From Kaiparowitsia implicata GSE-PSE-MK54-09C (GTDB taxonomy: Bacteria; Cyanobacteriota; Cyanobacteriia; Elainellales; Elainellaceae), in NCBI GenBank assembly GCA_019359435.1, contig JAHHHI010000068.1, positions 1 through 64,000 on the forward strand: 64,000 bases of DNA, written 5' to 3'. The position numbers and the translations under genes are program-made. Below the pieces are notes generated by a model. That model saw nothing but the letters and a program-made list of their open reading frames with translations. It was not told where the DNA came from and ran no database searches. Below are positions 21,069 through 33,539 of this stretch, one piece after another (position 1 is the first letter of the stretch; every line of letters starts with the position of its first letter).

Positions 21069-24000
21069 CTAACGCACCGATGCGGATTGATGATTCGAGG
21101 AGCTGGCATTAGATTGCCGAGGCTGAATCGTGGGAGCGTCTACCGCTCTACCCGATAGGTTAATGCTTAAGCTACCGCTGGGGTCATTGCTTGGGATTAC
21201 CAACCGAGCCGAGCGATCGCCCGCTTGAGTAGAGCCAAAGAAGATCTCGACGCTACAGGTCTGTCCCGGTTGAAGCTGCACATTTGAGCAAGCCGGGCCA
21301 GAAAAATCTTCATTGCTAGAAGGGCTGAAATCGAAGGGATGACTGCCCTCAATCCGCAGCGTCTGCGTGATCAGGGGTGCACTGCCCCGATTTGTAATCG
21401 ATACCCGCTGCGACGTGCTGTTGTCACCCACGACCTGTTCATTAAACGTGAGCGATGACGGCGTCACAGAGAGTGCCGGAAACTGCTGCTGCGTGCCGAT
21501 GCCATACATCACCACCGTTTGCTGCCCCTCGGCTGCATTGCTGGAGATGAAGATTTGACCGTAGCGATCGCCCGTCACCTGCGGAATGAACACCACCCCA
21601 AAGCGGCAGGTTTGCCCTGGTTCTAGCGTCACCCGCGAGCAATTCGCCCCAATTGGGCCGCCGCGATCGCTAACAAAATCCTCATTGGTTTCAGCCGTGA
21701 TAGTGCCCAGTGACAGCCGCCCCGTCCCAGCATTGGTAATGGCTAGGTATTGCGGCGGGCTAGCGGCTTCTAATTCTACATTACGAAAGTTGAGCCCTGT
21801 CGGGTTCAGGGTAATGCGGGGCACCTCAGGCACCGCCCCAGAGCCATTCAAAAACCCCCGCGCCGGACTGCGCGGGTCATTACTATAAATCAGCAAGTCA
21901 GCATCTTTGCTGCCTTGGCTGCGGGGATTGAACACCACATCAATGGTACAGCTGTTGCCCGGCGCTAAGTCGCCCTGACGCAGGCAGCCATTGCGGCGAA
22001 TGCTAAAGTCGCCGTTTCCTGTGAGATCGACCTGGCTGATGCGCAAGGTCTGGTTGCCCGTATTACTCACCAAAAATGCCTGCTGCTGGCTGGTGCTGTT
22101 CACCAGCTGCGGGCCAAAGTCAAATCCGCCAGGGGTGAGGCTGAGGGCAGGCTGCTGCGGTGCCACCACCACACCATAGCCTCGCAGCGGCAAATCCCAC
22201 AAATTGTTATCTGCATCAAGAACCGACAGGTTGGCGTTGCGCAGCCCCTCTGCTCGGGGCAAAAACGACACATAAATGGAGCAGGATTGATCGGGTGCCA
22301 GCGGAGCGCCTGTGCAATCGTTTGAGCTGCGGAAATCAGAGGCAAGGGAACCACTGGGCACAATTTCACGCACGGTCAGCGGTTGGGGGCTGGCATTGCG
22401 TAGCACAATGCGTCCAGAGGCGGTTTCAGTGTTGACAGGCTGCTCGCCAAAGTCTAGCTGGCCCGGCTGGAAGTTGAGCAGCACCACCGGCGGGGCCGAC
22501 GTGTCAGGATCGGTCGGCTGGCCAGGGTCAGTCAGGGTTGGGGTGCGACCCGCCAGCGCTGCCGTATAGCGATTCACGCCTGCTGCATCGCTAATGATTA
22601 ACTGAGCCGTGCGATCGCCCGGTGCCTGCGGCACAAAGGCTACATCCACCGTGCAGGTCTGGGCAGGCTGCACGGTGCTATTGGGGCAACTGCCGCCCGT
22701 AATCTGAAAATCTCCAGGATGGCTGCCAACGACCTGGATTCGCCCCAGATTCACCGCCTCGTTGCCATCATTCTGCACCGTCAACGCTTGAGGATCAGTG
22801 GCACGGTTAAGCTCCTGGGCGCTAAATGCCAGTTGCTCTGGCGTTAGGGCTAAGGTCAACGGATTGCGGTTGAGCTGATAGGCCAGGTATGCGCCCAATC
22901 CCAAAAATAAGGTGGAAATCAGCGCCGCCAAGGCCCACGGGGGCACCCCGGTGGAGGGCGTCTCCTCCTCCTGCTGGCCCGGGGGCGGGTGAATGGGCTC
23001 TGTATGGGGCTCCAGATTAGCCGATGGGTGCGGCGATGCCGACGCCGGGGGATGATAGTCGGGCGTCAGCAACAGGTTGAGGTTATGGCGGGTGGCGGCT
23101 GCGCCCGTGTCGTCGCCGTGAGATTCTCGAAGCTGCAGCGCTTGCCCTAGGTAGGCATTGGCGGTAAAGGTGTCGTCTAAGCAGAGGGCACGAGTGCCCA
23201 ACTGGTGCAGCGCATGGGCGATCGCCCCCTGATCTCCCAGTTGCTGAGCCGCATGCAGCGCCCGCTGCCACACCTGCTCCCATGCGCCCCAATACCCATC
23301 GACCATCAGCGACCCATCCAGCACCGAGGCCAAGGCCAGCACGTCTCCCCAAAGCTGATGACGAGCCGCCACATCCATCACCTGCACGAGCAATTCTGCA
23401 TCCCGCGAGACCACCCCCGATACCTGCGCATGTTGGCGAGCCCAGTTCGTCAAATGGGCAATCACCGGCTGCACCCATTGGCTCAAATTCCAGAACTGCC
23501 GCAGCGGTCGAATTAAGTTCCCCGCGAGGTGATAGCGGAGCCCATCGCTCACCACCAAGCCGCGACCCATTAGCGTATCGAGAATGGGCTGCACCTCCTT
23601 CGTCCCGACCAAGCCTGTGAGGTGGTGCTGCCGCACGGGCGCATCGCCCAGCACGCCCAGCGCTGCCAACGCACGACGCTCGGTTTCGGGCAGTTGGGTG
23701 CAGGCTCGCAGGGCCAACGTCTCAACGGCGGTTGTCTGCAGCTGCTGCACCAGCTCTGCTAAGGAAAAGTGGCGATGCTGGGCCAAGGCCGCGGCCTGCA
23801 AAATTTTTAGAGGATGGCCGAGCATTAGGGTGCACAGCAGTTCGAGCTGCGATCGCTCCTCTGCGGAGATCGTCCAGTTGAGCTGCGAGTCGGCCAGTTC
23901 TACCGCGTCTACCAGCGGCAACCCCTCCATCACTACAGAGTGGCTGTCTTGCCACAGATGGCGATCGCTACTCGCCACAACGACTCGCTGGCTAGGCAAC

Positions 24001-24929
24001 TCCGCCATCAGCTGCTCAATCAGAGGTGGCGGCAGACGCACCTCATCCAACAGCAGCACCGCGCGCTTGCCCCGAAACGCCTGCAACACCTGATCGCGGG
24101 TGGGCTTGCGGTGGACAGCGCCACTGTCATACCGAAAAAACGTGTCGAATAGCATCATCAACACGTCGTCGAGCGGTCGAGCGTACATCGGCAGATACAT
24201 CACCCCATCCGCCGCCATCGACTCTACATCCGAGTGATGCGCCAGGGTACACAGCAGCGACGTTTTGCCCATGCCAGTGTCGCCATAGAACTCCACCAAG
24301 TGCGACTCTTCGATGGCGGCGATCGCCCCCTCCAATTCGCTTTGCCGATTCACCAACCGCGACGGAGGTCGGCAGGAATCTTTGGCCAGCGGCGTAGACC
24401 GACTGCGAATCAGCGGGAGCTTGGCGTGGTGAGTGCGCGTGAGCAACGCTCCATGCGCAGACAGCTGCACCAGCTTGTCTGCGATCGAAATGTGCTGGCC
24501 CACGGTGCTGCCGTTGCCAAACTCGAGCTGGGTTGTCGGCGTTTGAGACGATTGCCCCTGCATCCGGTAGGACTCTAACTGAGCATGGGTGGGCGTGCCC
24601 GCCGTCACCGCAATTTGCTGCTGCCATTCGGCCTGGCGATCGCCCGCCCGTCGACCATAGACATTGAAGGCCTGCACGCCCTCAGCCCCTAAATGCGAAA
24701 CCCCCTGCTGCAAGAAATTCACCACATCTTGCTGAGGCGCACCGTGGGGCGATTCCAGCACAAGATGCAGCCCATTGGCATCGCGCATGACCTGAGCTGA
24801 AATGCCCTGGGGGTTTAGCGCCCGATTGATCAGCGTGGCGATCGCATCTGGATTGCCCTGGCGTGCCATCTCCAGCGTCTTGCTCTCGTCGTTCCACCCA
24901 GTAGTTGATTGATTCAGTGGTTGCACCAT
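21069..24929 (-). CDS. STAND-type NTPase with one membrane helix and five ASH-like extracytoplasmic domains
   Basis: The 1286-aa protein has five parts. Residues 15-110 form a small domain (MARQGNPDAIATLINRALNP) found in other large cyanobacterial proteins. An AAA/NB-ARC-like NTPase at about 195-420 has Walker A GDTGMGKTS (216-224) and Walker B AVLLLDEV (290-297). Winged-helix and TPR-like helices follow to about 630. A membrane helix, PPWALAALISTLFLGLGAYL, lies near 660-680. Then come five repeats of about 100 aa, each ending like PGQTC-x-V-x-F-P...GDR...L..G. Each repeat has two Cys 11-13 residues apart (for example CSRVTLEPGQTC), fitting disulfides outside the cytoplasm. The repeats resemble ASPM-SPD2-Hydin/choice-of-anchor D domains. 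The ligand and output are unknown; signalling across the membrane is inferred. Confidence 0.85.
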   Translation of the reverse strand: MVQPLNQSTTGWNDESKTLEMARQGNPDAIATLINRALNPQGISAQVMRDANGLHLVLESPHGAPQQDVVNFLQQGVSHLGAEGVQAFNVYGRRAGDRQAEWQQQIAVTAGTPTHAQLESYRMQGQSSQTPTTQLEFGNGSTVGQHISIADKLVQLSAHGALLTRTHHAKLPLIRSRSTPLAKDSCRPPSRLVNRQSELEGAIAAIEESHLVEFYGDTGMGKTSLLCTLAHHSDVESMAADGVMYLPMYARPLDDVLMMLFDTFFRYDSGAVHRKPTRDQVLQAFRGKRAVLLLDEVRLPPPLIEQLMAELPSQRVVVASSDRHLWQDSHSVVMEGLPLVDAVELADSQLNWTISAEERSQLELLCTLMLGHPLKILQAAALAQHRHFSLAELVQQLQTTAVETLALRACTQLPETERRALAALGVLGDAPVRQHHLTGLVGTKEVQPILDTLMGRGLVVSDGLRYHLAGNLIRPLRQFWNLSQWVQPVIAHLTNWARQHAQVSGVVSRDAELLVQVMDVAARHQLWGDVLALASVLDGSLMVDGYWGAWEQVWQRALHAAQQLGDQGAIAHALHQLGTRALCLDDTFTANAYLGQALQLRESHGDDTGAAATRHNLNLLLTPDYHPPASASPHPSANLEPHTEPIHPPPGQQEEETPSTGVPPWALAALISTLFLGLGAYLAYQLNRNPLTLALTPEQLAFSAQELNRATDPQALTVQNDGNEAVNLGRIQVVGSHPGDFQITGGSCPNSTVQPAQTCTVDVAFVPQAPGDRTAQLIISDAAGVNRYTAALAGRTPTLTDPGQPTDPDTSAPPVVLLNFQPGQLDFGEQPVNTETASGRIVLRNASPQPLTVREIVPSGSLASDFRSSNDCTGAPLAPDQSCSIYVSFLPRAEGLRNANLSVLDADNNLWDLPLRGYGVVVAPQQPALSLTPGGFDFGPQLVNSTSQQQAFLVSNTGNQTLRISQVDLTGNGDFSIRRNGCLRQGDLAPGNSCTIDVVFNPRSQGSKDADLLIYSNDPRSPARGFLNGSGAVPEVPRITLNPTGLNFRNVELEAASPPQYLAITNAGTGRLSLGTITAETNEDFVSDRGGPIGANCSRVTLEPGQTCRFGVVFIPQVTGDRYGQIFISSNAAEGQQTVVMYGIGTQQQFPALSVTPSSLTFNEQVVGDNSTSQRVSITNRGSAPLITQTLRIEGSHPFDFSPSSNEDFSGPACSNVQLQPGQTCSVEIFFGSTQAGDRSARLVIPSNDPSGSLSINLSGRAVDAPTIQPRQSNASSSNHQSASVR

Positions 24930-26810: not shown

Positions 26811-29663
26811 ATGGCGAAGTATGCCCTGCTGATTGGGGTCAGCAGCCACCATCCGCATAGCGTTTTGGCACCCTCTCCCACGGCGAAAAACGATGTAGTC
26901 GCCATGGAACAGATGCTGCTGCACCCCGAGATGGGTGGCTTTGCGGAGGTGAAGCCGGTGCTCGACCCAGACCGCATGGCCATGGAGGAAGAAATCGAAG
27001 CGTTCTTCCGCAAGTGCGGGCGCCAGGATTTGGCGGTGCTGTTTTATTCGGGCCAGGGGTTGCAGGATGACCGGGGGCAATCTTACTTTGCCACTGGGTC
27101 TACGCGGGTGTCTGCTGATGGGGAACTAGTCCGCTCTAGCGCGGTGCCTGCGGGCTCAGTGCAGGGGTTGATCGGGGGGCGATCGCCCCAGCAGCAGGTC
27201 ATGATTCTAGACTGCGGCTTTAACCGTACTGATGGCGAGCACACCGTGACCGACCAGGCGGATGCAGAAGCGGCCTGGCTCCGGCAGCAGTTGGCCGCGC
27301 AGGGGCGTGTGGTGATGCTGGGGGCTGGGGCGATCGCCCCCATGCTAGACCTATCGCCTTACACTCACTTTGTGGTCGAAGGCGTGACCTCGGGTGCCGC
27401 CGCACAGCGAGGCGATGCAGAAGTTTCCATTCGCGACCTGCATGATTATGCCCGTCGCTGCCTGCAAGCCACGCTTCCCGCCGCCCATCCCGAACTGATT
27501 GCGCTGCGAGAAGAAGACTACAACATTCGCTTGGCGCGGGTGCCCCGGCATGATCCCCACCAGCGATACCGAGAACAGGTCGAGCATTGTCTGCATGAGG
27601 GCAGCATTTCGCCCGTGGGGCGGGTAATTCTCGATCGCCAAAAGGTCATGCTGGGGCTAGCCCCTAGCGAGGCGCTGGCGATCGAAAATGAGACCCTACG
27701 CCCCTACCGCGACCACACCGACCGAGTCTCGCGCTATCGCAAAGCACTGGTGGCGGCATTGGAGTTGGGCTATCCCCTGGGCGATCGCCTGGTGGCTGAG
27801 CTGAAGGAGCTACAGGCTTTGCTCAACCTAGACGATGCCGAATTGGAAGCGTTGCAGCAGGCGGTGATGCAGCCCTATGCCGCCCGACACGATGCCCACC
27901 AGCAGCGGGTGCAGCGTTACGAAGCCGCCTTTCAGCAGGCGATCGCCCTAGAATATCCCTTGTCAGACCGGGCTCGGCAGTCACTACGTCAGCTTCAGAC
28001 CTCGCTCCAGTTGACAGAGGCAGAAATCGCCCCCCTCGAAACGCACCTGTTGCAGCAAGACCGCACCCAGCGCGAGCACTACCACGCCAATATCCGGCGG
28101 TTTGAGCAGGCCTGGTTGCAGGTGGCGCGGGTCAACCCTCAACTCAGCGAAGCCGACCGGGCATCGCTCGAAAAATTGCAGCATTCTCTCGGCATTGATG
28201 CGAGCCATGCCGCCCAAGTGCGGCAGCGGGTGCAGCAGCAGCTCCAAGCCGAGCACGCCGATCGACAGCAGCGATACGCCCGCTATGCGGCGGCGTTTCA
28301 GGACGAAATTGCCCAGGCCACCGTGCTCAGCAAACCTGCGCGCGATCGCCTCCAACGCCTCCAGCAGGATCTAAAGCTCGCGGATGCCGCCATCATCCCT
28401 CTAGAGGAGCGGGCGATCGCCCAGCAGGCAGCAACCCAACAGCACCAGGCTAATTTGGAACGCTATCGCCGCGCCTGTCTGCGACTGATGCAGGAGGACG
28501 ACCCCTTGAGTGACAGCAACCAACAGCAGCTCAAACGCTTGCAGGCCGATCTACATCTCAGCGATGCCGAGGTCGCGCCAATTTTGCAGCAGCTTCATGC
28601 CCAGGCGAAGGCGCAGCGCCAGCACTATCAGCAGCTCTTACAAATCTATCAAAAAACCTATAAAGCGGCGATCGCCCAAGAGTATCCATTAAGCGACTCG
28701 ACCCGTCAGCGCCTCACCCAGGCCTGGCAAGCTGCTGGCCTGCGTACCCCCGATGTGCAAGCGATTGAATATGCCCTAGAGGGCGATGTTGCCCGTCAGT
28801 ATGAGGCGAATCAAGACCGCCACCAGCACTATCGGCGAGCCTATGAAGAGGCCATTGGCATGACCGGGTCACTGGATGGGGGCGATCGCGATCGTCTGCT
28901 GGCGCTCGCCCAAACCCTCGACCTCTCCCCCGACACCATTGCCGACATTGAGCAGCAGGTAGACGAACACCATCACCCCACCAACCCAAGCGTCCCGGGC
29001 ATCCCCACAGACGCTGCCGCCGCCGACTCATCAGACCCGATAGAGTCAATGATTATGCCGCCGCCGCCGCCAGACATTATCTCTGAGCCTTCTCCCCCCA
29101 TGCGGTTCGAAGAAGAGGAGCACTTCGCCTCTGATGCCTCTGATATCGACTACGCCGTATTGCAGGGCTATCTGAAAGAGCAGCAGTGGAAATCCGCCGA
29201 TCGAGAAACCCAGCGCCTCTTGCTTCGGCTCACCCGTCGCGAAAAAGAAGACTGGCTCAGCCCCGACTCGCTCTTGCAAATCCCCTGTGCCGATCTCAAC
29301 ACCATCAGCCGCCTGTGGGATGACCACAGCAGTGGGCATTTTGGCTTTGCGGCCCAAGAGCGCCTTTACAATAACCTCGATTCGCAGTGGGGTGAGCAAA
29401 AGCGCGTGGTAGAGTTTGCCCTGTCGGTTAATTGGATGTTTAAGGCCGCGTCGTTTTATCCCATGTTTCGCACTTACAATAGTCTCGATTTCAACCTCTC
29501 TGCCGCCAACGGACACCTTCCGGCCCTGTGGTATTGGCGGCTGTCGCCTATGGCTAGCTTAAAAACCGGCTCCCTTGGCTTTCGGGGCGATCGCTCCTAT
29601 GGCGGGGCCGATATCAAAATGCTCGCCAACCTAATGCAGCGCCTCCGAGACTGCCGAATTTAG
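26811..29663 (+). CDS. Pseudo-caspase / helical repeat / GUN4 fusion protein
   Basis: The 950-aa protein has three parts. Residues 1-240 form a caspase-like (peptidase C14) domain: MAKYALLIGVSSHHPHSV, DLAVLFYSGQGLQDDRG and QQVMILDCGFNRTDG. Active members read SGHG and DCC/DSC at the two catalytic spots. Here they are SGQG (Q82) and DCG (G136, with C135 one place early), so the His-Cys dyad is lost. About eight helical repeats of roughly 60 aa fill residues 245-725, for example YEAAFQQAIALEYPLSDRAR then LQTSLQLTEAEIAPLE. After an acidic Pro-rich linker, residues 778-945 are a GUN4 domain: YLKEQQWKSADRETQRLLLR, CADLNTISRLWDDHSSGHFG and NLSAANGHLPALWYWR. GUN4 binds Mg-porphyrins and activates Mg-chelatase. 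A non-proteolytic scaffold sensing porphyrins is inferred. Confidence 0.88.
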   Translation: MAKYALLIGVSSHHPHSVLAPSPTAKNDVVAMEQMLLHPEMGGFAEVKPVLDPDRMAMEEEIEAFFRKCGRQDLAVLFYSGQGLQDDRGQSYFATGSTRVSADGELVRSSAVPAGSVQGLIGGRSPQQQVMILDCGFNRTDGEHTVTDQADAEAAWLRQQLAAQGRVVMLGAGAIAPMLDLSPYTHFVVEGVTSGAAAQRGDAEVSIRDLHDYARRCLQATLPAAHPELIALREEDYNIRLARVPRHDPHQRYREQVEHCLHEGSISPVGRVILDRQKVMLGLAPSEALAIENETLRPYRDHTDRVSRYRKALVAALELGYPLGDRLVAELKELQALLNLDDAELEALQQAVMQPYAARHDAHQQRVQRYEAAFQQAIALEYPLSDRARQSLRQLQTSLQLTEAEIAPLETHLLQQDRTQREHYHANIRRFEQAWLQVARVNPQLSEADRASLEKLQHSLGIDASHAAQVRQRVQQQLQAEHADRQQRYARYAAAFQDEIAQATVLSKPARDRLQRLQQDLKLADAAIIPLEERAIAQQAATQQHQANLERYRRACLRLMQEDDPLSDSNQQQLKRLQADLHLSDAEVAPILQQLHAQAKAQRQHYQQLLQIYQKTYKAAIAQEYPLSDSTRQRLTQAWQAAGLRTPDVQAIEYALEGDVARQYEANQDRHQHYRRAYEEAIGMTGSLDGGDRDRLLALAQTLDLSPDTIADIEQQVDEHHHPTNPSVPGIPTDAAAADSSDPIESMIMPPPPPDIISEPSPPMRFEEEEHFASDASDIDYAVLQGYLKEQQWKSADRETQRLLLRLTRREKEDWLSPDSLLQIPCADLNTISRLWDDHSSGHFGFAAQERLYNNLDSQWGEQKRVVEFALSVNWMFKAASFYPMFRTYNSLDFNLSAANGHLPALWYWRLSPMASLKTGSLGFRGDRSYGGADIKMLANLMQRLRDCRI

Positions 29664-31559: not shown

Positions 31560-33539
31560 TTACAGCACAGAGGGCAGAGGGGTTTCTGCGGTGAGGGCTG
31601 CATGATCAATCACGCGGTAAACCTGAGTAGGGTGTTGCTTTCCTGCTAGCGCCATCGGCCCCCAAGATTCTACTAGAAAGCGATCGCCCAGCAGCCCTAG
31701 GGTGTCTTCAGCAATTAAGATGCGACAGAGATCCACTTGGCGCTCTTTAACGCAGCTTTCTAACCGCGATGCCGTGTTCACCGCATCGCCAATCACGCCG
31801 TACTCCATCCGGGCTTTGCCGCCCAGGCTGCCTACCACTACTGGCCCCGTAAAAATGCCCACCCGCATTTGAATATCGAACAAATCGCGCCGCGCCCAAT
31901 CTTGATTTAGCTGTTGCAGCCGCTTGCCCATGGCTAACGCACAAGATACCGCTCGATAGGCATCGGTGACAACCGCTTCAGGCGTAAGGCGAGGCACCGG
32001 CACCCCAAATACGGCCAGCAGCCCATCCCCCGTAAATTTGTTCACGATGCCCTGGTGCCGCTGAATTTCTTGAGTCATGGCTTCGAGATACTCATTCAGC
32101 CATTCCAGCAATGCTTCGGGCGGCAGTTGCTCGGCAATTCCACTAAAGCCCTTAATATCTGTAAACAGCATGGTCGCCATCAGCCGCTGACCCGGCAGCT
32201 TACCCGATTGCAGCAGGCGATCGCGCGATTGCCAGAGTGCATTGGCGATTTCGGGCGACGTGTTTTGCCCTAGCAGCGTCATTACCATTTGCTGCTGCCG
32301 CTGGGCCTGCTGTGCTCGGTATGATACTACCGCGCCAAAGGCCATCACTGAGGCGATCGCCGGAGCCATCACCGGCACCCAGCCCCCTGCTAGATAAAGG
32401 GAGAAGCTTGCCCCCGCCAACCCCGCTAGCACCCCCGCGCTGCACAGCCCTAGTATAAGGGGATGCCGCACACCCCAGGCGATCGCTCCAGAAAGAGCCG
32501 TCCAGCCCAGCACCCACAACCCCTCTTGCCAGTCTGTCCAAAACCAAATCAGCCCGCGTCCCTCTAACGCTGCCACCAGGAGTTGGCTCACCATTTGCGC
32601 GTGGATGATGACCCCTGGCATTTGATGCGTGATTTGCTCCCCTGCGCTGTAGGGGGTATAAAACAAATCTTTGCCGCTGGGGGCTGTGGTGCCCACTAGA
32701 ACAATCTTATTGCGAACCCACTCCGGGTTGACCTGCTGATTCAACACCTGGGTTAGCGTGACCATGCGGGCCATGCGATCGCGCGATCGATAGGCCATCA
32801 ACACCTGATAGCCTCGCGCATCTAGCTGTTGATAGGCACCAGAATTGGACTCCAGAGGTCTAAATACAGCTTCGCCAAGCTGCATCCACTCCGCATTTTC
32901 GGCACTGGGGCTGGCGTGGATATTCTGCTGCGCTAGGTAGCGCATGGCCAACAGCAGCGAAAACGAGGGATACGTGGAGCCGTCAGTCGTAGAGCCAAAC
33001 AGCAGATTGCGCCGCACCACACCATCTTCATCCACCAGCAAATCACTGAAGCCCACCCGATCTGGCGCAACGGCGGGCGGCGGCGGCACCCGATCGCTGT
33101 CGTCATTGCCGAGTTTGGTAATGGCAATCAGTGACGCTGCATCTAAAGACCGTTCTAGAGCATCGCTGCCCGGCTCCTGCGGCACATCGCGGTGCAAGTC
33201 TAGACCCACCACAGTGGGGTCGTGCTGCATGAGCAGATCTAACGCTTGAGCAAGGGTTTCATCAGACGGCGTTACCCGCTGTAGGGTGCGGATGTCGGCT
33301 TCGGTAATGGCGACGATGAGCAGCCGTGGGTCTACGTCACCGTCGGCTTTGTATCGCACCATTCGGTCATAGAGCCGCAGCTCCAACGATTGCAGCCAGC
33401 CCAATTGTTTCATGCCAATCACGCAGCACGAGACCGCTAGCGTGGTGAGGGCGATCGCCCTCACTGCTGGCGAGAGTTGGGACTGGAGCTCAGGCCAGCG
33501 CTTGGGTTTTGGGAGCACAGGCTGAAAGAACTGACGCAT
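31560..33539 (-). CDS. CHASE2-domain adenylate cyclase
   Basis: The 659-aa protein has an N-terminal membrane helix (about 27-47), an extracytoplasmic CHASE2 sensor (for example RLLIVAITEADIRTLQRVTP; TVVGLDLHRDVPQEPG; NKIVLVGTTAPSGKDLFYTP), then three membrane helices (about 330-400) and a class III cyclase domain (about 440-645). The latter has both metal-binding Asp (LFTDIKGFSGIAEQL; KFTGDGLLAVFG), the adenine-selecting Lys in VNKFTGDG, and IGDAVNTASRLE. It should make cAMP in answer to an unknown external signal. The gene is monocistronic and faces the glnT-like gene. Confidence 0.93.
   Translation of the reverse strand: MRQFFQPVLPKPKRWPELQSQLSPAVRAIALTTLAVSCCVIGMKQLGWLQSLELRLYDRMVRYKADGDVDPRLLIVAITEADIRTLQRVTPSDETLAQALDLLMQHDPTVVGLDLHRDVPQEPGSDALERSLDAASLIAITKLGNDDSDRVPPPPAVAPDRVGFSDLLVDEDGVVRRNLLFGSTTDGSTYPSFSLLLAMRYLAQQNIHASPSAENAEWMQLGEAVFRPLESNSGAYQQLDARGYQVLMAYRSRDRMARMVTLTQVLNQQVNPEWVRNKIVLVGTTAPSGKDLFYTPYSAGEQITHQMPGVIIHAQMVSQLLVAALEGRGLIWFWTDWQEGLWVLGWTALSGAIAWGVRHPLILGLCSAGVLAGLAGASFSLYLAGGWVPVMAPAIASVMAFGAVVSYRAQQAQRQQQMVMTLLGQNTSPEIANALWQSRDRLLQSGKLPGQRLMATMLFTDIKGFSGIAEQLPPEALLEWLNEYLEAMTQEIQRHQGIVNKFTGDGLLAVFGVPVPRLTPEAVVTDAYRAVSCALAMGKRLQQLNQDWARRDLFDIQMRVGIFTGPVVVGSLGGKARMEYGVIGDAVNTASRLESCVKERQVDLCRILIAEDTLGLLGDRFLVESWGPMALAGKQHPTQVYRVIDHAALTAETPLPSVL

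Follow-up and report, generated by a model that had tools for sequence, protein, structure and literature searches.

A clade of pseudo-orthocaspases with glycine at the catalytic cysteine position, helical repeats and a divergent GUN4 domain in filamentous cyanobacteria

Fusions of a caspase domain with a GUN4 domain in cyanobacteria were published in 2010 (PMC2853523), and a later count gave 27 such fusions for true orthocaspases and 2 for pseudo-orthocaspases, with the RG dyad among the rare pseudo-orthocaspase variants (PMC8283722, 2021). A tetrapyrrole-sensor role for GUN4 fusions was proposed in 2020 (PMC7159879), and for each module relatives have been suggested to act in conflict systems (PMC7159879, PMC8195603). 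For SyOC of Synechocystis, a different pseudo-orthocaspase from the one described here, deletion alters oxidative-stress survival (PMC7889975). As a group, pseudo-caspases occur commonly in photosynthetic bacteria, and there is hardly any explanation for them. A preliminary description of the present locus took its joining of a porphyrin sensor to a caspase-like module as a new combination; this does not hold, since the fusions, their pseudo forms and the sensor idea are in the first three of these papers, respectively. What appears to be new is a clade with fixed Gly136, its rod of eight units and the altered pocket in its class of GUN4 domain, of which the main texts of the cited papers contain no description.

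The gene was found in a stretch of 64,000 nucleotides from Kaiparowitsia implicata GSE-PSE-MK54-09C, called the window below, and its parts are listed in Table 1. The reading frame was confirmed to be uninterrupted over its 950 codons. Pfam places Peptidase_C14 at residues 3-149 (E 5e-9) and GUN4 at residues 776-910 (E 1e-27, 97 bits).

Table 1. Parts of the gene and of its product, with nucleotide positions in the window
Feature	Positions	Strand	Basis
Pseudo-orthocaspase with helical repeats, linker and GUN4 domain, 950 aa	26811..29663	+	Open frame, Pfam, five full-length orthologs
Caspase fold, residues 1-245	26811..27545	+	Pfam Peptidase_C14; model matching MALT1 and metacaspases over 1-244
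Asp28, proposed counterpart of TbMC2 Asp95 (S1 pocket)	26892..26894	+	Clade alignment; role of acids from PMC6426788
Gln82 at the catalytic His position (SGQG)	27054..27056	+	Alignment; Gln, Arg or Lys in clade
Asp134-Cys135-Gly136 (DCGF), Gly at the catalytic Cys position	27210..27218	+	Alignment; Gly136 codon 27216-27218
Eight helical repeat units of ~61 aa each, residues 251-722	27561..28976	+	Self-comparison period 61; unit HMM; model
Pro-rich low-confidence linker, residues 723-775	28977..29135	+	pLDDT <50 over most
GUN4 fold, divergent GHLPALWYW class, residues 776-950	29136..29660	+	Pfam; Z 19.7 to 4xkb; tree of 84 GUN4 domains
Changed pocket stretch, Leu892 (Phe196 of Synechocystis GUN4) and Trp907 (Asn211)	29484..29531	+	HMMER alignment to 1y6i, clade alignment, GUN4 survey

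A sequence search of PDB chains with the caspase profile of the clade gave no match at E 0.01, so the evidence for the fold is the predicted model of residues 1-330, which was built from a shallow alignment of five sequences and has a mean pLDDT of 75.7 and a pTM of 0.68, other models of this part being lower in mean pLDDT. Over residues 1-244 the model matches human MALT1 (4i1r) with Z 22.3 (196 residues, 2.6 A) and Arabidopsis metacaspase 4 (6w8s) with Z 21.6 (204 residues, 2.2 A), in line with the earlier reading that the caspase fold is kept. In the model, Gln82 follows the strand at 74-80 and Gly136 follows the strand at 128-134, which are the standard places of the dyad. Both replacements had been noticed in the preliminary description and were confirmed at the codons given in Table 1. 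They are not peculiar to this protein: both dyad residues are replaced in all six members of the clade described below, position 136 being Gly in each of them and position 82 being Gln, Arg or Lys, never His. Judging from these residues and the model, the protein is very probably dead as a protease. It may be noted that Asp134, the counterpart of TbMC2 Asp211, is kept in all six members, and Asp28 in 5 of the 6 and in 36 of 37 active relatives, the two being equated with the S1-pocket acids by motif position. Such acids accept the basic side chain of the substrate in metacaspases and are also retained by other pseudo-orthocaspases (PMC6426788). Their presence here suggests that a basic peptide may still be held in the groove.

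Loss of the standard dyad could also be expected from a decaying relic, or from a protease that has rebuilt its active site with other residues, for example Cys135 and His186. The first of these residues adjoins the lost nucleophile, and the second (window 27366-27368) is invariant in the dead clade and found in only 6 of the 37 active relatives, which mostly have Arg there. Yet Cys135 is Trp in one ortholog, and a search of the clade alignment gave no replacement His-Cys pair, since no Cys is invariant anywhere in the clade. Moreover, none of the six genomes has an interrupted frame and the domain is strongly constrained, so both the relic and the rebuilt protease appear extremely improbable.

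Orthologs were searched for in the genome of the window, 60 relatives, the order (36 genomes) and a sample of the phylum (386 genomes). Five full-length proteins with the same layout were found, all in related filamentous cyanobacteria of the same family as the window genome: those of Leptolyngbya sp. FACHB-8 (dyad RG), filamentous cyanobacterium LEGE 07170 (KG), the MAGs PMM_0085 (RG) and M55_K2018_004 (QG), and the complete genome G008 (RG). A member of the clade was found in only 6 of the 36 genomes of the order, and no relative turned up when viral contigs were searched with the clade alignment. The double substitution at positions 82 and 136 is not a random error, because it recurs in the five orthologs from four other genera. 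In a tree of 45 caspase sequences, 37 of which have His-Cys, the six dead proteins form one clade with support of 100/99, although the active-site columns had been removed before the tree was built. They stand as a clade of their own beside active HC proteins in this tree of their closest relatives. The sister of the clade is L012 (support 95/62), which has the HC dyad and the same layout of caspase, repeats and GUN4. A sister with an intact dyad and this layout makes the fusion older than the loss of catalysis, which probably happened a single time.

On comparing the parts of the protein within the clade, a mean identity of 51.3% was found for the caspase domain, 51.6% for the GUN4 domain and 39% for repeats 3-6, with only 23% over residues 609-772 (the last two repeats and the linker). 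The dead domain is therefore constrained as tightly as the other end of the protein. At the protein identities concerned, 40-57%, synonymous sites were judged to be saturated. Given a clade of six intact members in which Gly136 is fixed and His82 never occurs, the window caspase domain is a kept pseudoenzyme and not a case of decay, as the preliminary description had judged. The window genome also encodes a separate caspase-like protein (L106:1366-3582, contig C31) with SGLG and DAG at the dyad sites, which is probably a pseudo-orthocaspase of an LG type.

The remainder of the protein was modelled separately (residues 240-950, 22 sequences, mean pLDDT 87.5) and consists of a rod of long and short helices and the GUN4 fold, so that the helical repeats and GUN4 domain read earlier in the same chain are both present. 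The pLDDT of the repeats is mostly 85-98. Their 61-aa unit is a module found widely in cyanobacteria: nearly all of the active relatives examined have two units directly after the caspase domain, as against five to eight in the dead clade, and units are also joined to active caspases, FGE-sulfatase, TIR, and GUN4 without a caspase. One such protein of the window genome (L004:784-2553, contig C58) combines a TIR domain with three such units and an ARC6-like IMS domain of the chloroplast-division type.

The best PDB match of the unit profile is Tic110 (4bm5), with a marginal E of 0.0013. Pfam Tic110 matches on L055 (2.4e-4) and L034 (1e-3) are both below the cut-off, and in 20 cyanobacterial genomes the model matches, above the cut-off, nothing but one seven-unit repeat-GUN4 protein (G007; L142:1348-3009). 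Structural comparison of the whole helical rod gave no match above the usual helical background. Single units gave Z 6.5 with the TerB-like protein 2ou3, a value too low to use, and we regarded FluMu_N and other weak Pfam matches on the repeats as due to chance. The matches to chloroplast Tic110, weak but recurrent, point to a possible kinship, which we treat as a lead and not as a result. One may go further and suppose that the module, found as it is with caspases both dead and live, with TIR, with FGE-sulfatase and with GUN4, is the bacterial relative of Tic110, and that the present clade has turned it into a dedicated scaffold without proteolysis, whose dead groove would read basic peptides and whose GUN4-class domain would bind a protein or other ligand rather than porphyrin; this extended reading is speculative and we think it rather improbable. 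If the link to Tic110 were true, it would have a bearing on how a component of chloroplast import arose.

The GUN4 part of the model matches Synechocystis GUN4 with bound deuteroporphyrin (4xkb) with Z 19.7 (149 residues, 2.0 A). This match to a porphyrin-bound structure speaks for a reading of the protein as a sensor of tetrapyrrole status, in which the GUN4 domain would bind Mg-porphyrin or a related tetrapyrrole and so control docking by the dead caspase domain, a role of the kind already proposed for GUN4 fusions generally (PMC7159879). The pocket was examined by assigning its residues by sequence alignment around the GHLP anchor. By this assignment Phe196 of Synechocystis GUN4 corresponds to Leu892, Trp192 to Thr888 and Asn211 to Trp907. 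Arg214 does correspond to an Arg (Arg910, by ungapped continuation), which favours the sensor, but the orthologs have Gln, Lys or Ala at this position. None of the six clade members has the LxNxLR bilin motif, and the present protein reads GHLPALWYW where GHLPLLNQLR would stand. In Arabidopsis GUN4, changes at the equivalents of Phe196 and Arg214 reduce the affinity for porphyrin (PMC8967248), and the GUN4 paralogs analysed in PMC10156173 are all without the Asn. The true GUN4 of the same genome (L108) retains both the Phe and LxNxLR. As Phe196 and Asn211 are replaced here and kept there, porphyrin sensing by the window GUN4 domain appears doubtful, and the sensor reading as a whole is unlikely. 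The preliminary description had supposed a porphyrin-sensing scaffold; the fold stands, and the residues found in the pocket argue against the sensing and go part of the way towards the missing porphyrin pocket that this description had itself taken as counting against it.

The GHLPALWYW motif is not confined to this clade. We found it to define a class of 47 sampled domains including that of the window, with Leu changed to Arg or Phe in a few and Tyr to Phe in many, and in a tree made from 84 GUN4 domains a single branch separates the class from the rest (SH-aLRT 84). A class of this size without key pocket residues calls for caution before every GUN4 domain is called a porphyrin sensor. In Nodosilinea-like cyanobacteria (L091:7791-11170), a repeat protein of ~380 aa, a repeat-GUN4 protein of ~520 aa ending in GHLPTWRW and a small GUN4 protein of ~200 aa ending in GHLPALWYW are encoded by adjacent genes; similar gene sets are present in L085, L088, L092, L094 and L098-L101, and the whole has the look of a conserved GUN4 system of several genes.

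The gene lies among genes for a TPR protein, tRNA-Gln(ttg), a type III glutamine synthetase and a CHASE2 cyclase, and on comparing its neighbours on both strands with the ortholog surroundings none was found to recur; a ROK-kinase-type gene, present upstream of L057 and L060 only, was seen in the ortholog neighbourhoods. The cyclase (31560-33539, minus strand) is a CHASE2-adenylate/guanylate cyclase with a PADLOC match to a Pycsar cyclase (E 6.7e-26) and is probably an ordinary CHASE2 cyclase. Elsewhere in the window (21069-24929, minus strand) a protein of 1286 aa has a weak AAA/NACHT-like P-loop and, behind a membrane-like segment, five choice-of-anchor-D (ASH/HYDIN-like) repeats.

Two further explanations were weighed. 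Pseudo-caspases regulate caspases in animals, and the window genome does encode an active relative, L002, with the HC dyad and two units of the same repeat. The dead caspase could pair in the manner of c-FLIP with a co-encoded active repeat-bearing orthocaspase and either brake or prime it. Against this, metacaspases and orthocaspases are mostly described as monomeric, and the other caspases of G008 and G013, which both carry the pseudo-protein, are without the repeat, so that pairing through the repeat is not general; we consider such a regulator quite improbable. The other explanation is an anti-phage decoy or guard, in which the fake protease active site would bait a phage inhibitor or effector. 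Decoys usually diverge fast, whereas conservation is high in this caspase domain. Among the neighbours scanned, no defence gene was recognised, and PADLOC gave only partial matches on the protein, to the GUN4 part of PD-T4-6 and to a generic caspase model. The proposed placing of relatives of each module in conflict systems (PMC7159879, PMC8195603) speaks for a decoy, as do the TIR-repeat protein and a NACHT-GUN4 protein of the same genome (L109, a NACHT-like P-loop protein ending in GUN4, the NACHT being read from sequence without a family search), but on the whole we hold this explanation to be highly unlikely.

The role that we consider most likely, with modest confidence, is that of a catalytically dead orthocaspase serving as a non-proteolytic adaptor or peptide-binding scaffold. 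The dead groove would bind, and leave uncut, a basic peptide or a partner, the rod of eight units would provide spacing and multimerisation, and the C-terminal GUN4-class domain would offer another place of docking, either to a protein or to some ligand that is not among the porphyrins and bilins of true GUN4. From the rod and the C-terminal domain we infer a tethering of two partners, whereby the protein may bring a partner to a target or may shield the target. The setting would be a stress and conflict signalling network of caspase, TIR, NACHT and GUN4 proteins in filamentous cyanobacteria. For pseudo-caspases the clade offers a clean case, in which catalysis was apparently lost once from an architecture already assembled, both sites are fixed to non-catalytic residues and the substrate pocket is kept, and the active sister of the same layout allows a comparison with the dead clade.

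Among known systems, the protein resembles the cyanobacterial pseudo-orthocaspases (YS/YN types, SyOC; PMC6426788, PMC7889975) in having the caspase fold with both dyad residues replaced and the S1-pocket acids kept, and in coming from photosynthetic bacteria. It differs from the YS/YN proteins in its QG, RG or KG dyad, in its eight repeats and GUN4 domain and probably in forming a separate clade, typical pseudo-orthocaspases having no further recognised domain. With the caspase-GUN4 fusions it shares a single chain with the caspase at the N-terminus and GUN4 at the C-terminus, but most of these have an active dyad, and the other active fusions that we sampled (L021, L022, L024, L029) carry two repeat units, and their GUN4 domains belong to other classes. 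The nearest NCBIfam model is that of the EACC1-associated caspases (NF047832; PMC7159879); however, the score of 89.6 bits is below the curated cut-off of 140 bits, which the active relatives L002 and L036 exceed, and no EACC1 membrane protein gene lies beside the window gene. With Tic110 (4bm5) there is a weak match of the repeat unit to the C-terminal helical repeats and a common form of an elongated helical-repeat scaffold, but Tic110 is a membrane-anchored part of a translocon and the similarity is marginal and unproven. The GUN4 cofactor of Mg-chelatase (1y6i, 4xkb) has the same fold as the C-terminal domain, which is set apart from it by the replaced Phe196, Trp192 and Asn211 and the absent LxNxLR motif.
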